In this document: positions 33,132-42,321 of the stretch, one piece after another | Layout of the letters: the number at the start of each line of letters is the position of its first letter | Numbering within the stretch: position 1 is the stretch's first letter | From: Candidatus Alcyoniella australis | Lineage (GTDB): Bacteria > Lernaellota > Lernaellaia > JAVCCG01 > Alcyoniellaceae | DNA length: 42,321 nt | Assembly: GCA_030765605.1 (NCBI GenBank) | Contig: JAVCCG010000021.1 | Coordinates: 1-42,321, forward strand | Reading direction: 5' to 3' | Made by a program: the position numbers and the translations under genes | Notes under the pieces: generated by a model | Told to the model about the DNA's origin: nothing | The model's input: the letters and a program-made list of their open reading frames with translations, nothing else | Databases searched by the model: none

Positions 33132-33202
33132 ACTCTTGAGTGTCGCTTCTATGTCGCACCTCCTCGTGCCAGATTTTCACCCGTGTCATATTCTCATAAT
33201 CG

Positions 33203-33312
33203 CCCTGATCGACATAGCCCGCTGGCAATCTGGAAATCAACGAACTCTAAGCCGCATTCCACCATTCGTATCGATGGTGCAGGCCGCCGACTCTCGACAG
33301 GGCGATAACCAG
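33203..33312 (-). mobile_element. Transposase 3'-end relic with downstream flank (copy 1)
   Basis: One minus-strand frame reads VIALSRVGGLHHRYEWWNAA then TAG at 33247-33249, the C-terminal end typical of rve-type integrase-like transposases. The same frame and the next 40 bases down to CGATCAGGG recur at 42182-42287. Only the tail remains. Confidence 0.65.
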
Positions 33313-33319
33313 AGCGGAG

Positions 33320-33563
33320 TCCGTAGGTCGCGTGGAGCAATTGCCTTGCGGTGCTCAACGAAAGCCCTCGCGCACGCAACCTGGATCGCGCTCTGCAGCT
33401 CTCGCACGTTTCCGGGCCAGGTGTAGCGTCGAAGCATGTACGCAGCCGCAGGCTGAATCCCCGTTACCATGACTTCTCCCACGTCGCACTCCCCGATAAA
33501 CGCCCTCGCCAGCATCGCGATATTGCTCGGCGTGATCCATCCGCCCTCTTCAAGACGCGACAA
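33320..33563 (-). pseudogene. Sigma-54-dependent activator, fragment of AAA+ domain
   Basis: The minus strand reads NIAMLARAFIGE, then IQPAAAYMLRRYTWPGNVRE, LQSAIQVACARAF and IAPRDL, the C-terminal lid of sigma-54 activator ATPases including the WPGNVREL motif. Walker A, GAFTGA and the DNA-binding helix-turn-helix are absent. It runs straight into the transposase relic, so it was truncated by that insertion or a later deletion. Confidence 0.75.
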
Positions 33564-33769: not shown

Positions 33770-34489
33770 ATGAAAAGAAAGATAGTACGGTCAAAGAGAC
33801 GTTTGCTACAGAAATCCGCTGTTCAATATTTGTATCTTCCAATGTTCGCATTAATAGCCACGATACTGTTTTATCCTTTACAAGCCATTGGATCGGGTAA
33901 GCTGGTATTTGAATGGCTTGGTGGCGATTGTTGGGATATATACCGCGGCAGCCAATTCGTTGACTATAATTGCGGAAAAGACCAACAAGAGTTGCAGGCT
34001 GGTATTTACACGATCAAGCCAAAGCACCACCCATATTTCACGCCATTTACTGTAACGATAAGGGATGGTCAAACTTCAACGGTAAGCTTCGGCGGCGTTT
34101 TCGTTTACAATTGGGCTGGTGGAGATTGTTGGGATATATACCGTGGCAGCCAATTCGTTGACTATGATTGTGGTAAGGGCAAACAAGCGCTGGAGGCAGG
34201 TATTTACACGATCAAGCCAAAGCACCACCCATATTTCACGCCATTTACTGTAACGATAAGGGATGGGTACGAAAACACAGTAACGAAAGGTGGTGTTTTG
34301 GAATTCAATTGGGCTGGCCGCGATTGTTGGGATATATACCGCGGCGACCAATTCATCGACTATGATTGTGGAAAAGGCAAACAAGCACTGGAACCTGGAT
34401 GTTACACGATCAAGCCGAAGCATGATCCGGTATTCAGTCCGTTTAATGTAACCATTATCGAAGGGCAAACTACCACAGTTTCAAGATAG
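33770..34489 (+). CDS. Secreted protein of three Cys-containing tandem repeats
   Basis: The protein has 239 residues from the ATG at 33770, with GGAGG five bases upstream (the ATG at 33758 overlaps that site). A basic start and one hydrophobic segment (YLPMFALIATILFYPLQAIG) act as signal peptide or anchor. Three repeats of about 62 residues follow, each with W(x)GxDCWDIYRGxQF, DYxCGK, LxxGxYTIKPKHxPxFxPF and VTIxxGxxxTV. Two Cys per repeat could pair. The beta pattern ending in GxYTI...VTIxxG resembles PEGA-like surface repeats, but no family is recognised. Repeats 1 and 2 are nearly identical at DNA level, so they are a recent duplication. AT-rich compared with the surrounding genome. Confidence 0.85.
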   Translation: MKRKIVRSKRRLLQKSAVQYLYLPMFALIATILFYPLQAIGSGKLVFEWLGGDCWDIYRGSQFVDYNCGKDQQELQAGIYTIKPKHHPYFTPFTVTIRDGQTSTVSFGGVFVYNWAGGDCWDIYRGSQFVDYDCGKGKQALEAGIYTIKPKHHPYFTPFTVTIRDGYENTVTKGGVLEFNWAGRDCWDIYRGDQFIDYDCGKGKQALEPGCYTIKPKHDPVFSPFNVTIIEGQTTTVSR

Positions 34490-35315: not shown

Positions 35316-35848
35316 AACATTCGGAGGTTACACAAGAGACATGCTTTCAGAACCGTTGAAATATAATTTATTGGTTTAATGACACAGAAATTTGATTTGG
35401 AGGGTGTACGTCGTGGGAGCTAGGGAGAAAGAAAACGATCAATGAGTAGGTGAGTCATGGAAGATGGAAAGATTGAGAAACCGCTAGAAGAGGTACGACC
35501 AGCCAAAAAGAGGGGGTCAAATTTCGGGAAACAATTGGCGTCGTCCATGTAACTGATTGAATATAAAGGCGAACCACGATTCATCCATCCATGTTTCGTC
35601 CATGCGCGTCCATTAAAGCGCAATAAAAACAGCATGTTATCCATGAGCGTCCATGCGGTGCCGATCGACCGTGATTGGCGGTTCAAATCCACCGTATCTC
35701 TATGACATTGCTGCCAATTCTTTTTATAAACACCGTACCAAGCCGCGATCTTCATCCATGCGTGCGTCCATGAGTGCATACGGTTTTTTGCGCGGGAGCG
35801 TTTTCGCGCGTTTTTCCGGCGGAAGTTTTTTTCCGAAACGCTTCCACC
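35316..35848. other. Gene-free stretch with scattered GTCCATG repeats
   Basis: No convincing coding frame. GTCCATG or ATCCATG occurs several times between 35578 and 35775, often followed by CGTCCAT. At 35676-35696 the plus strand has GGCGG-TTCAAAT-CCACC, like a tRNA T-arm, but no other tRNA arm fits around it. A GC hairpin CCGGCGGAAG/CTTCC sits just before the 75-bp repeat at 35849. Confidence 0.4.
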
Positions 35849-35924
35849 TGTGGCTCGCCAAAATTAGATCACGGGTGATTTCGACCTTTGGTTCGGGTCA
35901 TCGCTCATCCGTAGTAGCGGGTCA
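35849..35924 (-). repeat. 75-bp dispersed repeat, copy 1
   Basis: Starts TGTGGCTCGCCAAAA and ends TCCGTAGTAGCGGGTC on the plus strand. Nearly the same sequence occurs at 37290-37365 and 42040-42115. This copy stands alone, 70 bases before the beta-propeller lipoprotein. Orientation given as minus because neighbouring transposase remains read that way. Confidence 0.8.
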
Positions 35925-35994
35925 CGCCTAATTCCCGCGTTGCATGGATGAATGCCTTTTGTTACGGTAATTTGGAAAGACATTGGAGAAATCA

Positions 35995-37245
<1,251 letters not shown>

Positions 37246-37289
37246 TCAGGGTCGTACTCCAATGAGCCTTTCCGCGGTGGCTTGAAGCC

Positions 37290-37365
37290 TGTGGCTCGCC
37301 AAAAATAGATCACGGGTGATTTCAACCTTTGGTTCGGGTCATCGCCCATCCGTAACAGCGGATCG
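37290..37365 (-). repeat. 75-bp dispersed repeat, copy 2
   Basis: Starts TGTGGCTCGCCAAAA 44 bases after the beta-propeller stop. On the minus strand it is read as the tail of a transposase scrap (IRCYGWAMTRTKG then stop). Confidence 0.8.
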
Positions 37366-37430
37366 CCATCGGCAGCAGCCTCATGGCGTGGCGCTCGTTG
37401 AAGACTATGACGTGATCTAGTAATTCGTTG
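37366..37430 (-). pseudogene. Transposase scrap (rve-type integrase core)
   Basis: The minus strand reads LDHVIVFNERHAMRLL, matching the conserved segment of DDE integrase-like transposases near the catalytic Glu. Upstream frames are broken. The 37431-37569 stretch before the sigma promoter holds nothing recognisable. Confidence 0.6.
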
Positions 37431-37569: not shown

Positions 37570-37597
37570 TAACGCTCCCGGGTCGCCGCTGGTCATA
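37570..37597 (+). promoter_or_regulatory. Putative ECF promoter of the sigma-factor operon
   Basis: TAACGCTC (37570-37577), 13 bases, GGTCATA (37591-37597), 22 bases before the ATG. The same two blocks at the same spacing precede the DUF1566 operon at 39102-39129. An AAC-type -35 with GTC at -10 is a common ECF promoter form. Confidence 0.7.
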
Positions 37598-37619
37598 GTA
37601 TTAGGCACCTTGAGGTTAC

Positions 37620-38177
37620 ATGGTTGAGTATGACGATGTTGCAGATCTCGTTTTGCGGGCTCGACGAGGCGAGATGACAGCGCAGGAAGCGTTGGTCCGA
37701 AGATTTTTGCGCCCTGCCTATTCGGTGGCGCTGGGTGTTATGCGGCACCCCGCCGATGCTCAGGACGTCGCACAAGAGTCGCTAATGGTTGCTCTCGAAC
37801 GCCTCGACCAGTGCCGTGAGCCGTCGCGATTCGCCGCGTGGCTGCTCAAGTCGGTTCGCCATCGGGCGCTCAACCATCTTACGAAGCGCTTGAATCGCTC
37901 TGTGTTGCTCGACCAAATGGTGAAGACCGATGTGACCGAAGTGAATCCGCGCGGCGATGTTTTACTGCGGCAACGGCTGATCGACGCTCTGGAAGTGCTA
38001 AACGCCGTGCAGCGCGAGGTAGTGCTGTTGCACGATCTACAGGATTGGAAACATGCCGAGATCGCCAACGTACTGAAGATCTCGGAGACGATGTCTCGCC
38101 AGCATCTGTTTGTTGCGCGACGTGCTTTGCGCCAAAAACTTGGCGAGGATTTTGGTAATGAGGTGTTGCATGGATGA
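37620..38177 (+). CDS. ECF-type RNA polymerase sigma factor
   Basis: The protein has 185 residues. Region 2 is ALVRRFLRPAYSVALGVMRH and DAQDVAQESLMVALERLDQC with RFAAWLLKSVRHRALNHLTK. Region 4 is LNAVQREVVLLHDLQDWKHA and EIANVLKISETMSRQHLFVA with RRALRQKL. GAGG lies four bases before the ATG. The next two genes overlap it and each other, so they are its likely regulators. The shared promoter motif suggests that it drives its own operon and the DUF1566 lipoproteins. Confidence 0.93.
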   Translation: MVEYDDVADLVLRARRGEMTAQEALVRRFLRPAYSVALGVMRHPADAQDVAQESLMVALERLDQCREPSRFAAWLLKSVRHRALNHLTKRLNRSVLLDQMVKTDVTEVNPRGDVLLRQRLIDALEVLNAVQREVVLLHDLQDWKHAEIANVLKISETMSRQHLFVARRALRQKLGEDFGNEVLHG

Positions 38178-38514
38178 TAATCGCATCGACTTTTCTTCGC
38201 TTGATCCGCTGGCTGATCCCAACCGCTTCGAGCGTTCGGTGCGCGCGGTAATGGCCGGTGTAACACAAGCAACTGATCCCCATCCGCTTCTAAACGCCAT
38301 TTCTTACATCGGACGCCGCGTTGTACTAGCCACGGGCATGGCCGCTATTTCAATGTGGATTCTGATGTTCCTTGCCTTAAATCCCGTAGTCCAGAGCGGC
38401 AAAGGCGATACGACGATGGACCCAGTGGAGATGATCTCGACGTGGGCCGAGGCCGACAGCATTCCGCTGGATGTTGACGTGCTGCAGGTCATGGAGCTGC
38501 TCGATGCTCGCTAA
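38170..38514 (+). CDS. Probable anti-sigma or sigma-linked membrane protein
   Basis: The protein has 114 residues from the ATG at 38170, overlapping the sigma gene by 8 bases. The first 50 residues are cytosolic and charged; RRVVLATGMAAISMWILMFL is the single membrane span; about 45 residues follow outside. No zinc-binding HxxxCxxC is visible, so it is not a classical ZAS anti-sigma factor. Role inferred from position and topology. Confidence 0.7.
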   Translation: MDDNRIDFSSLDPLADPNRFERSVRAVMAGVTQATDPHPLLNAISYIGRRVVLATGMAAISMWILMFLALNPVVQSGKGDTTMDPVEMISTWAEADSIPLDVDVLQVMELLDAR

Positions 38515-39097
38515 AGCGCCGCGCCGTCGGGCAACATTGATTGCCGTCCTGATCCTCGCCGGAATCTTTCTGACAGGCATCGCGACCGGAGCGGCGTTGG
38601 TAACCTGGTTGCGGCCCTCTGGACCGCCTGGACCACCACCATTTGCGGTTAATGGGCCCAGTGGGCTGCCGCAGCCGTTTGCATCGTACGGGCTGGACTC
38701 CGACCAGCTACGTTTGGCGCAACCCATTGTGGAACGTCACCGCGTGGAAGTGGAGGCAGCGGTAAAAGAGGTCTTCCCGCAGATTCATGCGGTACGTGAG
38801 CAATTTGACCGGGAAATGCAAACGATCCTCACGCCGGAGCAAAATCGTCGTTTCAAAGAATTCCTCGCGTCCCATCCCCCGGTCCCCGACTTTCAGGGCC
38901 CAGGTCTTCCGGCAGGCGGCCCATTGCCACCGCCGCAACAGGCTGTTGATTCTTGTACTGGCAAGGCAGTGGGCGAGGACTGCGAATTTAAAGGCATGGG
39001 TGGCGAATCCGTGACCGGATCCTGCCAAATGGACGGTGACGTGTTGGCCTGCGTGCCCGCGGGCGGTCCGCCAACCAATGAAAAGCAGCGACCTTAA
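38504..39097 (+). CDS. Membrane-anchored Spy/CpxP-like periplasmic protein with Cys module
   Basis: The protein has 197 residues from the ATG at 38504, overlapping the previous gene by 11 bases. The N-terminal span is TLIAVLILAGIFLTGIATGA. A Pro-rich linker precedes a helical region (RLAQPIVERHRVEVEAAVKE, ILTPEQNRRFKEFL) of the Spy/CpxP or heavy-metal-sensor type, which binds misfolded proteins or metals. The last 45 residues form a four-Cys module, CTGKAVGEDCEFKGMGGESV then TGSCQMDGDVLACVP, that recurs at the end of the DUF1566 protein at 39183-40676. It is probably the envelope sensor arm of the ECF system. Confidence 0.78.
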   Translation: MLAKAPRRRATLIAVLILAGIFLTGIATGAALVTWLRPSGPPGPPPFAVNGPSGLPQPFASYGLDSDQLRLAQPIVERHRVEVEAAVKEVFPQIHAVREQFDREMQTILTPEQNRRFKEFLASHPPVPDFQGPGLPAGGPLPPPQQAVDSCTGKAVGEDCEFKGMGGESVTGSCQMDGDVLACVPAGGPPTNEKQRP

Positions 39098-39101
39098 ACT
39101 C

Positions 39102-39129
39102 TAACGCTCTAAGTATCTGAACGGTCTAA
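39102..39129 (+). promoter_or_regulatory. Putative ECF promoter of the DUF1566 operon
   Basis: TAACGCTC (39102-39109), 13 bases, GGTCTAA (39123-39129), 53 bases before the ATG at 39183; same arrangement as at 37570-37597. Confidence 0.7.
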
Positions 39130-39182
39130 TAACTGTGAAGACCGCAGCAAAATTCTCAGCCGCAATTCAGACTGGAGATGAG

Positions 39183-40676
39183 ATGAAACTGAGCTATCGT
39201 TTGATATGCATCGCACTCGCCGTACTGCTGTGTGGCGCGTTTGTCACCTGCACCAACGGCGACGACGACGATTCGGCTGACGATGATGCGGCCGACGACG
39301 ACGCTGCCGACGATGACGACGACGATTTCACGCCGCCCGATGTGGATTACGCCGTGGTTGATACCGATCAGTCACAATGCTACGGCCTGAGCGCGGCGAT
39401 CACCTGCGGCAGCGATTTCCTGGGTCAGGACGCCCAGTACGACGGCTACCAGCCACGCTATCAAGATAACGGCGACGGCACCGTCACCGACCTGATCACT
39501 GGCCTGATGTGGCAAGCCGACCCGGGCGACAAGACGTCGTACGCCGATGCGGTTGCCGGTGCCGGTAGCTTCAGCCTCGCCGGTCACGACGACTGGCGTT
39601 TGCCGACGATCAAAGATCTCTACTCGCTGATTCAATTCTCGGGCGAAGATCCCAGCGGCGAAACCGGTGACGACACTTCCGGCCTGACGCCGTTCATCGA
39701 CGCCAACTACTTCGCTTTCGAATACGGCGACACCAACGCGGGCCAGCGGATCATCGACTCGCAGTGGGTGACCAGCAGCATTTACGTGGCGAGCGTCATG
39801 GGTGGCCAGGAATGCTTCTTTGGCGTCAACTTCGCCGACGGTCGCATCAAATGCTACGGGACGGGACCAGCCCCCAGCGGCTATTACACGATCCACGTCC
39901 GCAACAACGGCACCTATGGCGCCAACAACTTCGCCGACAACGGCGACCAGACTGTGACCGATAACGCCACCGGCCTGCTGTGGCAGCAAAACGACAGCGG
40001 CCAAGGGATGAACTGGGAAGCGGCGCTGGACTACTGCGAAACCCTCGACCTCGCCGGACACGATGACTGGCGTTTGCCCAATGCCAAAGAGTTGCAAAGC
40101 ATCGTCGACTACTCCCGTTCACCGGACACGACATCCTCCGCGGCCATCGATCCGATATTCAACATCTCGTCGATCACCAACGAAGGCGGCGACGCGGATT
40201 ACCCGTTCTTTTGGACCGGCACAACGCACGCGTCGTCCAACGGCTCGGGCGGCTTTGCGGCCTATGTTTCCTTCGGGCGCGCCCTTGGCTACATGGATGG
40301 AAGCTGGATCGACGTCCACGGCGCCGGCGCCCAGCGTAGCGATCCCAAAGACGGCGATCCCGCAGATTACCCTGACGGGAACGGCCCGCAGGGCGACGCT
40401 GTTCGAATCTTCAACTACGTTCGCTGTGTCACCGGTGGCGGAAATAGTCCTGCACCGGATGATGACGATGATGACGATTCGATTCCCGAACCGGATGATG
40501 ATGACGACGACGAAGAAGAACCGCCGCCTGACGAGGCCATCGAAGCCTGTGAAGACAAAGCGGCGGGGGATGATTGCGAATTCGAAGGCATGGGCGGTGA
40601 ACCTGTAACCGGTAACTGTGAACAAATCGGCGATGTGCTGGCTTGTGTACCCGAGGGCGGTCCGCCGGTCGAATGA
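39183..40676 (+). CDS. Poly-Asp lipoprotein with two DUF1566 repeats and four-Cys module
   Basis: The protein has 497 residues from the ATG at 39183, with GGAG five bases upstream. The signal peptide ends in the lipobox FVTC, followed by DDDD/ADDD runs. Two DUF1566 (Lcl) domains follow, each with DNGDxTVTDxxTGLxWQ and HDDWRLPxxKxLxSxxxxS. A second poly-Asp linker (about 445-475) leads to a C-terminal CEDKAAGDDCEFEGMGGEPV module that matches the end of the Spy-like protein. DUF1566 is common in secreted proteins of Proteobacteria and may bind glycans. The ECF-type promoter lies upstream. Confidence 0.88.
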   Translation: MKLSYRLICIALAVLLCGAFVTCTNGDDDDSADDDAADDDAADDDDDDFTPPDVDYAVVDTDQSQCYGLSAAITCGSDFLGQDAQYDGYQPRYQDNGDGTVTDLITGLMWQADPGDKTSYADAVAGAGSFSLAGHDDWRLPTIKDLYSLIQFSGEDPSGETGDDTSGLTPFIDANYFAFEYGDTNAGQRIIDSQWVTSSIYVASVMGGQECFFGVNFADGRIKCYGTGPAPSGYYTIHVRNNGTYGANNFADNGDQTVTDNATGLLWQQNDSGQGMNWEAALDYCETLDLAGHDDWRLPNAKELQSIVDYSRSPDTTSSAAIDPIFNISSITNEGGDADYPFFWTGTTHASSNGSGGFAAYVSFGRALGYMDGSWIDVHGAGAQRSDPKDGDPADYPDGNGPQGDAVRIFNYVRCVTGGGNSPAPDDDDDDDSIPEPDDDDDDEEEPPPDEAIEACEDKAAGDDCEFEGMGGEPVTGNCEQIGDVLACVPEGGPPVE

Positions 40677-40702: not shown

Positions 40703-41908
40703 ATGAAGACTTTTGTGCAAATCACGCTCCTCCTATTGCTGATTGTCGCCGTGCTGGTGGCTTGCGACACCGGAGACGACGATGATGATGTAACCGATAC
40801 CGATGATGACGACGTCAATGATGATGACGACAATCCGACAGATTATGAATACCCTTTGGTCGATACCGGGCAAGACAAGTGCTACGACACGGACAATGAA
40901 ATCGCCTTCCCATTACCGGGCGAGGCGTTCTACGGTCAGGACGCCCAGTACGACGGTTCAGCGCTCGACTTCCAAGACAATGGCGACAGCACGGTAACAG
41001 ACCTAGTCACCGGACTGATGTGGGAAAAAACGCCCAGCAGCGAATCCTATAGCTGGGAAGGCGCCTTGGCCTCCTGTGAGTCGCTGACTTTGGCCGATTA
41101 CGACGACTGGCGCGCCCCGAGCCTCAAAGAGCTGTTTTCGATCAGTGATTTTGAGACCGGCTGGCCGTACGTCGATGCCGACGTGTTCGACCTGGTCGGC
41201 AACCAAATCAGCAAGGACGAGCAATATTGGTCCAGCAACCATTATGTCGGCGTCACGGTTGAGGGCCAATCGGACGCGGCCTTTGGCGTGAACCACGGAA
41301 CAGGACATATCAAGGCTTATCCGGCAAATGGCACAGGCCCTATCGCGGGGAATTACGTGCGTTGCGTGCGGGGTGAGGAGTATGGCGTAAATCAGTTCGT
41401 GGATAACGGCGACGGCACGATCACCGACCAAGCCACCGGCCTGATGTGGATGCAAAACGACAGCGGTTCCGGCGTGGACTGGGAGAATGCGCTGGCCTAT
41501 GCGCAGACCCAAAATGAGGCCAATTACCTCGGCTACACCGACTGGCGTCTACCCAACGTCAAAGAGTTGCAGAGCATTGTGGATTACACGCGCTCTCCGA
41601 GTGCGGCCGAGGCTGCGAAGGTGGGTCCGGCCATTGATCCGATGTTCAGTTGCACGGCGATCATCAACGAAGCAGGCGACGACGACTATCCCTACTTCTG
41701 GACCAGCACCTCGGCCTACTTCAACCCCTCTGATCCAAGTTACTATTACGCATGGTACGTGTCCTTCGGAATGGCGGTTGGCGGCAGTGGCGAGGATTTT
41801 CACGGGGCGGGCGCGGTTCGCTTTGACACGAAGGTCGAAGGCGGTCCAGCCGGTGAGGGCGGCGAGCGGTACTATAACTACGTGCGCTTGGTCCGCGGGG
41901 TTGACTGA
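40703..41908 (+). CDS. Poly-Asp lipoprotein with two DUF1566 repeats
   Basis: The protein has 401 residues from the ATG at 40703, with GGAG seven bases upstream. The lipobox is LVAC and the linker DTGDDDDDVTDTDDDD. Two DUF1566 domains carry the same NGDxTxTDxxTGLMW and DWRxPxxKEL marks as the upstream paralog, but the C-terminal four-Cys module and second Asp linker are missing. The gene starts 26 bases after the previous stop and is probably in the same ECF-driven operon. Confidence 0.88.
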   Translation: MKTFVQITLLLLLIVAVLVACDTGDDDDDVTDTDDDDVNDDDDNPTDYEYPLVDTGQDKCYDTDNEIAFPLPGEAFYGQDAQYDGSALDFQDNGDSTVTDLVTGLMWEKTPSSESYSWEGALASCESLTLADYDDWRAPSLKELFSISDFETGWPYVDADVFDLVGNQISKDEQYWSSNHYVGVTVEGQSDAAFGVNHGTGHIKAYPANGTGPIAGNYVRCVRGEEYGVNQFVDNGDGTITDQATGLMWMQNDSGSGVDWENALAYAQTQNEANYLGYTDWRLPNVKELQSIVDYTRSPSAAEAAKVGPAIDPMFSCTAIINEAGDDDYPYFWTSTSAYFNPSDPSYYYAWYVSFGMAVGGSGEDFHGAGAVRFDTKVEGGPAGEGGERYYNYVRLVRGVD

Positions 41909-41991: not shown

Positions 41992-42039
41992 TCAGCCGCA
42001 GCAGCCTCCATCATCGTCGTCATCATCGTCATCGCCGCC
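41992..42039 (-). pseudogene. Poly-Asp C-terminal scrap (minus strand)
   Basis: The minus strand encodes GGDDDDDDDGGCCG then TGA. The frame is closed just upstream by a TAG inside the 75-bp repeat, so only a tail of an Asp-rich protein remains, cut exactly where the repeat begins. The gap 41909-41991 shows nothing else. Confidence 0.4.
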
Positions 42040-42115
42040 TGTGGCTCGCCAAAACTAGATCGTGCCTGATTTCAACCTCTGGTTCGGGTCATCGCTCATC
42101 CGTAGCAGCGGGTCT
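42040..42115 (-). repeat. 75-bp dispersed repeat, copy 3
   Basis: Starts TGTGGCTCGCCAAAA. The homology with copy 2 extends about 30 bases further (minus strand, RLPLMETRCYG against RLLPMAIRCYG). It lies about 70 bases from the transposase tail at 42182. Confidence 0.8.
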
Positions 42116-42181
42116 CCATCAGTGGGAGCCTCAGCCCGGGCAATGGTTCAAGTAAAAGTTTCTCAGCTGGACAAACCACGG

Positions 42182-42321
42182 CCCTGATCGACGTATCCCG
42201 CTGACAGCCTGAACTCGCCGACCCCTACGCTGCGTCGCGCCACTCGTAGCGATGGTGCAGGCCGCCGACTCTAGGCAGGGCGATGACCCGCGCGGCATAC
42301 GAAGTGCGGCGTTGAACGGGC
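42182..42321 (-). mobile_element. Transposase C-terminus (copy 2), cut by window edge
   Basis: The minus-strand frame is open from the window edge and reads RVIALPRVGGLHHRYEWRDA A then TAG at 42225-42227, the end of an rve-type transposase. The 40 bases after the stop match the relic at 33203. Whether the gene is intact beyond 42321 cannot be seen. Confidence 0.65.

Follow-up and report, generated by a model that had tools for sequence, protein, structure and literature searches.

The 42,321-nt stretch of DNA analysed here (hereafter the window) carries the operon of an ECF sigma factor directly upstream of two genes for DUF1566 lipoproteins, and this raises the question of whether one sigma factor serves both. 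The first-pass annotation had claimed that the same 8-base block, followed by a 13-base gap and GGTC, occurs before each. Both copies are present: TAACGCTC-N13-GGTC is matched with zero mismatches at 37570-37594 (+; TAACGCTCCCGGGTCGCCGCTGGTC) and at 39102-39126 (+; TAACGCTCTAAGTATCTGAACGGTC), with an identical gap of 13 bases and spacers that are unrelated in sequence. The starts had been placed correctly at 37570 and 39102, but the ends, given as 37597 and 39129, were three bases too long. Each site is intergenic and on the same strand as the gene behind it, the first 25 nt upstream of the ATG of the sigma gene at 37620 and the second 56 nt upstream of the probable ATG of the first DUF1566 gene at 39183. 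This start is more likely than the GTG at 39135, because 'CTGGAGATGAG ATG' makes a good ribosome site. We consider it likely, with good confidence, that the ECF sigma factor encoded at 37620-38177 uses TAACGCTC-N13-GGTC as its promoter and would thereby serve its own operon and the adjacent DUF1566 operon. The features concerned are the following.

37570..37594, + strand: predicted ECF promoter 1 (autoregulatory), with AAC at 37571-37573, N18 and GTC at 37592-37594
37620..38177, + strand: ECF sigma factor of 185 aa, Sigma70_r2 and Sigma70_r4_2 with nothing between
38170..38514, + strand: predicted anti-sigma factor, a short one-TM protein of 114 aa, overlapping the sigma gene by 8 nt
38507..39097, + strand: Spy/CnrX-like protein of 196 aa, secreted or anchored, with an N-terminal TM helix, long helices and LTPEQ
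38924..39082, + strand: Cys module at the C-terminus of the Spy-like protein, with 62% identity to the module of DUF1566 lipoprotein 1
39102..39126, + strand: predicted ECF promoter 2 (target), with AAC at 39103-39105, N18 and GTC at 39124-39126
39183..40676, + strand: DUF1566/Lcl_C lipoprotein 1, carrying two Lcl_C repeats, linkers rich in Asp and a Cys module at its C-terminus
40518..40676, + strand: Cys module of DUF1566 lipoprotein 1, C-terminal
40703..41908, + strand: DUF1566/Lcl_C lipoprotein 2, 26 nt downstream of lipoprotein 1

The sigma protein matched Sigma70_r2 (25-90), Sigma70_r4_2 (117-170) and TIGR02937, all above cut-off. It consists of regions 2 and 4 only, within the size of about 170-200 aa that defines ECF (group 4) factors, and its operon has the ECF-type AAC-N18-GTC upstream at 37571-37594. 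No close ortholog was found in the six other genomes of the class, and the nearest paralog in the same genome, the sigma factor of an operon on contig C10, shares 28% identity. The 114-aa membrane protein is predicted to be the anti-sigma factor: it has one hydrophobic segment, and its gene lies directly behind the sigma gene, a position matched by its counterparts at three other loci (L093, L180 and L200). It gave no Pfam match and showed neither zf-HC2 nor the HxxxCxxC motif of class I zinc-finger anti-sigma factors. The third protein of the operon gave no match to Pfam LTXXQ or Metal_resist at E 0.1. Its LTPEQ is present and long helices were predicted in a single-sequence structure model with a pTM of only 0.28; a search of solved structures with this protein returned nothing useful.

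Both DUF1566 proteins scored above the gathering cut-off for Lcl_C (136.9 and 168.5 bits, in two stretches each) and matched NCBIfam Lsa25 below its cut-off. Putative lipoboxes could be read by eye, a canonical LVAC in protein 2 and FVTC, with an unusual Thr at -1, in protein 1. The two genes are probably carried on one transcript. That the Spy-like protein and the first DUF1566 protein have a Cys module in common hints at a connection between their operons. This module, Cys-rich and C-terminal (C..K..GD.C.F...G...G.C......LACVP.GGPP), also occurs in DUF1566 proteins of class relatives (L160, L161 and L163). As for the surroundings, the gene block is flanked on both sides by an intergenic repeat of 97-140 nt (CCTGTGGCTCGCCAAAA...TTCGGGTCATCGC) at 35846-35942, 37287-37383 and 42037-42133, which has ten matches in the genome, including contigs C41, C49 and C79. 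A second pair of repeats, 77-84% identical and about 9 kb apart, lies at 33202-33326 and 42181-42304, and a secreted-type protein of three 198-nt tandem repeats (GDCWDIYRGSQFVDYDCGKG...) is encoded at 33893-34479.

The annotation had taken the repeated block itself as the mark of a sigma-factor site, a claim that is not supported: when the 33 upstream regions of the window (from a crude gene set called on open reading frames) are compared pairwise, 10 of 528 pairs, about 2%, contain a block as good. An equally good 8+4 match arose in 59 of 20,000 dinucleotide shuffles of the two regions (120 x 85 nt), and in 65 of 6000 when the whole 374-nt intergenic region was used. The spacer being unrelated, windowed identity did not detect this pair of upstream regions. 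Without further support, the match is weak to modest evidence for a promoter. A genome-wide search for the motif had been set beforehand as a test of the claim, with random scatter counting against it, and such scatter was not seen. The whole 4.29-Mb assembly contains two exact copies, both at this locus, where about 0.5 copies would be expected by chance (simple arithmetic for 12 fixed bases on both strands). Eight one-mismatch copies in the genome were inspected individually and all lie inside or antisense to genes, one of them in a gene read as rpsU; they were dropped as candidate further targets. Allowing up to three mismatches within the window gave 32 occurrences against 36 expected, i.e., no excess.

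More telling evidence came from the spacing of related operons in the class, which was sampled with seven genomes, this one included. As the window sigma factor lacks close orthologs in the class, we used a paralogous Spy-linked operon to define the footprint. This operon, in the order sigma factor, TM anti-sigma and Spy-like protein, is present in six class genomes (on C10 of this genome, and in G002-G006). AAC-N18-GTC was found upstream in all six, 23-52 nt before the assumed start and with unrelated spacers. When spacings of 10-30 were scanned, only 18 occurred in more than one region, namely in all six and in both window regions, and every other spacing occurred in none or one. By shuffling, AAC-N18-GTC is expected by chance in 2-10% of cases per region, and a single spacing common to all six regions was not obtained in any of 2000 shuffled sets, a figure to be read with the common descent of the six operons in mind, as they do not represent six fully independent events. 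The spacing of 18 is not generic, since the class also has three other ECF operons with AAC-N17-GTC. The window sites share the spacing found in all six, and therefore have the geometry predicted for a Spy-linked ECF system by a separate comparison; on this point the annotation's claim of an AAC/GTC-type site is supported. The GCTC part of the window -35 region is absent from the paralogous operons, and the specificity of the sigma factor therefore rests on two sites. At one further locus with the order sigma, TM, Spy-like and MacA-like protein (L093), an AAC-GTC site was not found. Distant relatives of the sigma factor on contigs of other genomes belong mostly to zinc-finger systems; upstream of three actinobacterial sigma-gene relatives (L056-L058) we noted a conserved TGGTTAGACACCG block, unlike an AAC/GTC promoter.

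The same gene layout is seen again in another lineage. In genome G031, from a different lineage, a relative of the Spy-like protein sits in a cluster of sigma, anti-sigma, Spy and DUF1566 genes, and a protein search found the window's DUF1566 subfamily in nine genomes of that phylum, with 44-60% identity over long stretches. In the family that we designate f28, a cluster of sigma, anti-sigma and Metal_resist (Spy) genes adjoins a gene for the two-domain DUF1566 protein in four genomes: the DUF1566 gene is collinear with, and follows, the cluster in G117 and G124, and is divergent from the orthologous sigma gene in G103 and G114; the DUF1566 proteins of these four loci are 44-58% identical to those of the window. 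The Spy-like proteins of G117 and G124 matched Metal_resist above cut-off, and the anti-sigma counterpart gave a weak zf-HC2 match below cut-off. In all four genomes GAAAGGA-N15-GTTNGG stands upstream of the sigma gene and again upstream of the DUF1566 gene. Exact copies of this motif number 4, 2, 2 and 2 genome-wide in G103, G114, G117 and G124 (0, 0, 1 and 0 for the reversed pattern as control), and all of them are at the sigma/DUF1566 locus; of the four in G103, two stand before further genes, namely a CotH kinase gene and a CotH-VTC-DUF4956 operon. G123 has a copy before the orthologous sigma gene and another, on a different contig, before a VTC-DUF4956-HlyD operon (control, 3), which suggests action in trans; a DUF1566 gene of this genome is preceded by a one-mismatch copy. 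By windowed identity, a similarity between the sigma and DUF1566 upstream regions as good as the real one arose in 1 of 2000 shuffles for G124 and in 0 of 2000 for G117. In G117, only 3 bases separate the DUF1566 site from the end of a terminator (11 pairs, seven T) in front of it; as this strong terminator leaves no room for another promoter, the block before the DUF1566 gene most likely starts transcription itself. It speaks against the promoter reading that several sigma-gene sites of f28 are a mere ~12 nt away from the start codon, as leaders beginning there would be very short.

The link between the sigma and lipoprotein promoters proposed in the annotation therefore gains support from a lineage in which the sigma and DUF1566 genes of such a cluster share a different upstream site. 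The layout is common to f28 and the window, although the f28 motif is wholly unlike the TAACGCTC...GGTC of the window, as would be expected if a sigma factor and its promoters had diverged together. The sites, their spacing, the recurring layout and the restriction of the exact motif to the locus are all directly visible in the DNA.

Four other readings of the window sites were weighed against this one. It is unlikely that they are real ECF promoters read mainly by another ECF sigma factor, such as the Spy-linked paralog on C10, with the window sigma factor as one of its targets. The C10 operon has TTAAC-N18-GTC upstream, with spacing equal to that of the window sites, and it encodes the nearest paralog at the identity given above. 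However, C10 and the window do not agree in their -35 and -10 letters (TTTAACTTTC and TTGTC on C10 versus TAACGCTC and GGTC in the window), region 4.2 of the two sigma factors is strongly different, and the shared f28 motif is confined to loci with the cognate sigma factor or its presumed targets. Quite improbable, too, is a scheme in which read-through of the sigma operon alone accounts for transcription of the DUF1566 genes, the second site being superfluous. The gap between the Spy-like gene and the first DUF1566 gene measures 85 nt and no terminator was found in it, but the second site has the full form of a promoter, and in f28 a separate site precedes the DUF1566 gene also in the divergent loci (G103 and G114) and behind a terminator (G117). 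Mere coincidence among upstream regions, leaving the 8+4 match without function, would agree with the proportion of equally good pairs in the window and with the lack of enrichment of near-matches in window or genome; we nevertheless consider it very unlikely, given that the two sites agree with an ECF geometry established separately from the six paralogous operons (about 2% by chance per region), are correctly placed and are the sole exact copies in the genome, and that the layout recurs in f28 with a different motif. Most improbable is that the block is not a promoter and serves instead as an operator bound by a regulator, or as an RNA leader element: visual inspection suggests a sigma-70-like TTGACG...TAGGAT or TACTCT shortly before some f28 sigma-gene sites, so that the f28 block could lie within a leader, but the block is bipartite, its two parts being set apart by a gap of constant ECF length and variable sequence, these regions gave no match to an Rfam family (the Rfam matches being three tRNAs far away), the G117 block stands right behind its terminator, and an ECF sigma factor is the only regulator gene common to the loci.

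The reach of such a link appears limited. Most DUF1566 relatives, for example those in G002, G005 and about ten other lineages, do not adjoin an ECF gene, and the link is therefore occasional, one of several wirings. No AAC-N16..19-GTC was found upstream of the other DUF1566 genes of this genome (three on C157) or of the relatives in G002 and G005, in a scan that left out the DUF1566 genes on C34 and C141. For the collinear sigma, short membrane protein, Spy-like and DUF1566 genes of G031 (L180, contig C365), a shared upstream site was not found. The clusters of CotH kinase, VTC and DUF4956 genes also differ: in f28 they are preceded by the shared promoter, whereas the cluster on C33 of the window genome has neither TAACG-N-GGTC nor AAC-N18-GTC in promoter position. 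This latter cluster (L272, 4237-12230) encodes DUF4956-like, HlyD-like, outer-membrane-factor-like and VTC-like proteins, an LTD-type lipoprotein and two CotH proteins in a row, a gene content similar to that of the f28 regulon. In another lineage (L220, on C36 of G374), two CotH-like genes lie directly upstream of a DUF1566 gene at a locus lacking an ECF gene.

On the preferred reading, that of a promoter pair served by the window sigma factor, the sigma factor would read TAAC(GCTC) as its -35 region and GGTC as its -10 region. In the resting state the short membrane protein would hold the sigma factor while the Spy-like protein monitors the periplasm; a signal would then release the sigma factor, which would raise expression of its own operon and turn on the two DUF1566/Lcl_C lipoproteins. 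From sequence, we infer transcription from the two sites, anti-sigma activity, sensing by the Spy-like protein and the surface location of the lipoproteins. That the signal is the state of the envelope, as the annotation proposed, is a fair guess from the Spy-like partner, as Spy-type proteins are linked to envelope stress.

Such a circuit resembles the CnrH-CnrY-CnrX system, which comprises an ECF sigma factor, CnrY as a short membrane anti-sigma and CnrX as a periplasmic sensor anchored in the membrane, the last belonging to the Spy/CpxP/ZraP/CnrX fold family. It differs from CnrYXH in that the sigma gene comes first in the window, the targets are DUF1566 surface lipoproteins where CnrYXH has a metal efflux pump, and the Spy-like protein, not recognised by the Metal_resist model, has no identified metal ligand. 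CnrH of Cupriavidus metallidurans serves both its own operon and the target operon cnrCBAT, whose transcription has a separate start downstream of the sigma gene (PMC4803752). The likeness to RpoE-RseA consists of an ECF sigma factor with a membrane anti-sigma, an AAC-type -35 region and autoregulation (predicted in the window). In contrast to RpoE-RseA, the window anti-sigma is not related by any Pfam domain, the cluster is without an RseB-like protein, and the regulon appears very small and local where the RpoE-RseA type is global. The target proteins themselves, with two Lcl_C domains, are reminiscent of Legionella Lcl and Leptospira Lsa25, but have Asp-rich linkers and a C-terminal Cys module and are without collagen-like repeats. 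Lcl is described in PMC11162425 as a surface adhesin recognising glycosaminoglycans.

Our search of the open-licence literature did not find ECF control of this kind described for DUF1566 or CotH/VTC/DUF4956 genes. We regard as evenly balanced the broader proposal that these loci represent an undescribed ECF family, in which a sigma factor, a membrane anti-sigma and a Spy/Metal_resist-like sensor are dedicated to two-domain DUF1566/Lcl_C lipoproteins and, in some lineages, to CotH kinases with VTC/DUF4956, and which recurs in distant lineages where sigma factor and promoters changed together. DUF1566/Lcl_C proteins are widespread surface proteins and act as adhesins in Legionella and Leptospira. 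The two proposed sigma/promoter pairs, with the unrelated specificities TAACGCTC-N13-GGTC and GAAAGGA-N15-GTTNGG, would be directly testable in E. coli. If true, the proposed control would provide a stress-type switch for DUF1566/Lcl_C surface proteins in uncultured lineages, and the tie between CotH, VTC and DUF4956 genes and the DUF1566 regulon in one lineage would offer a hint at their function.
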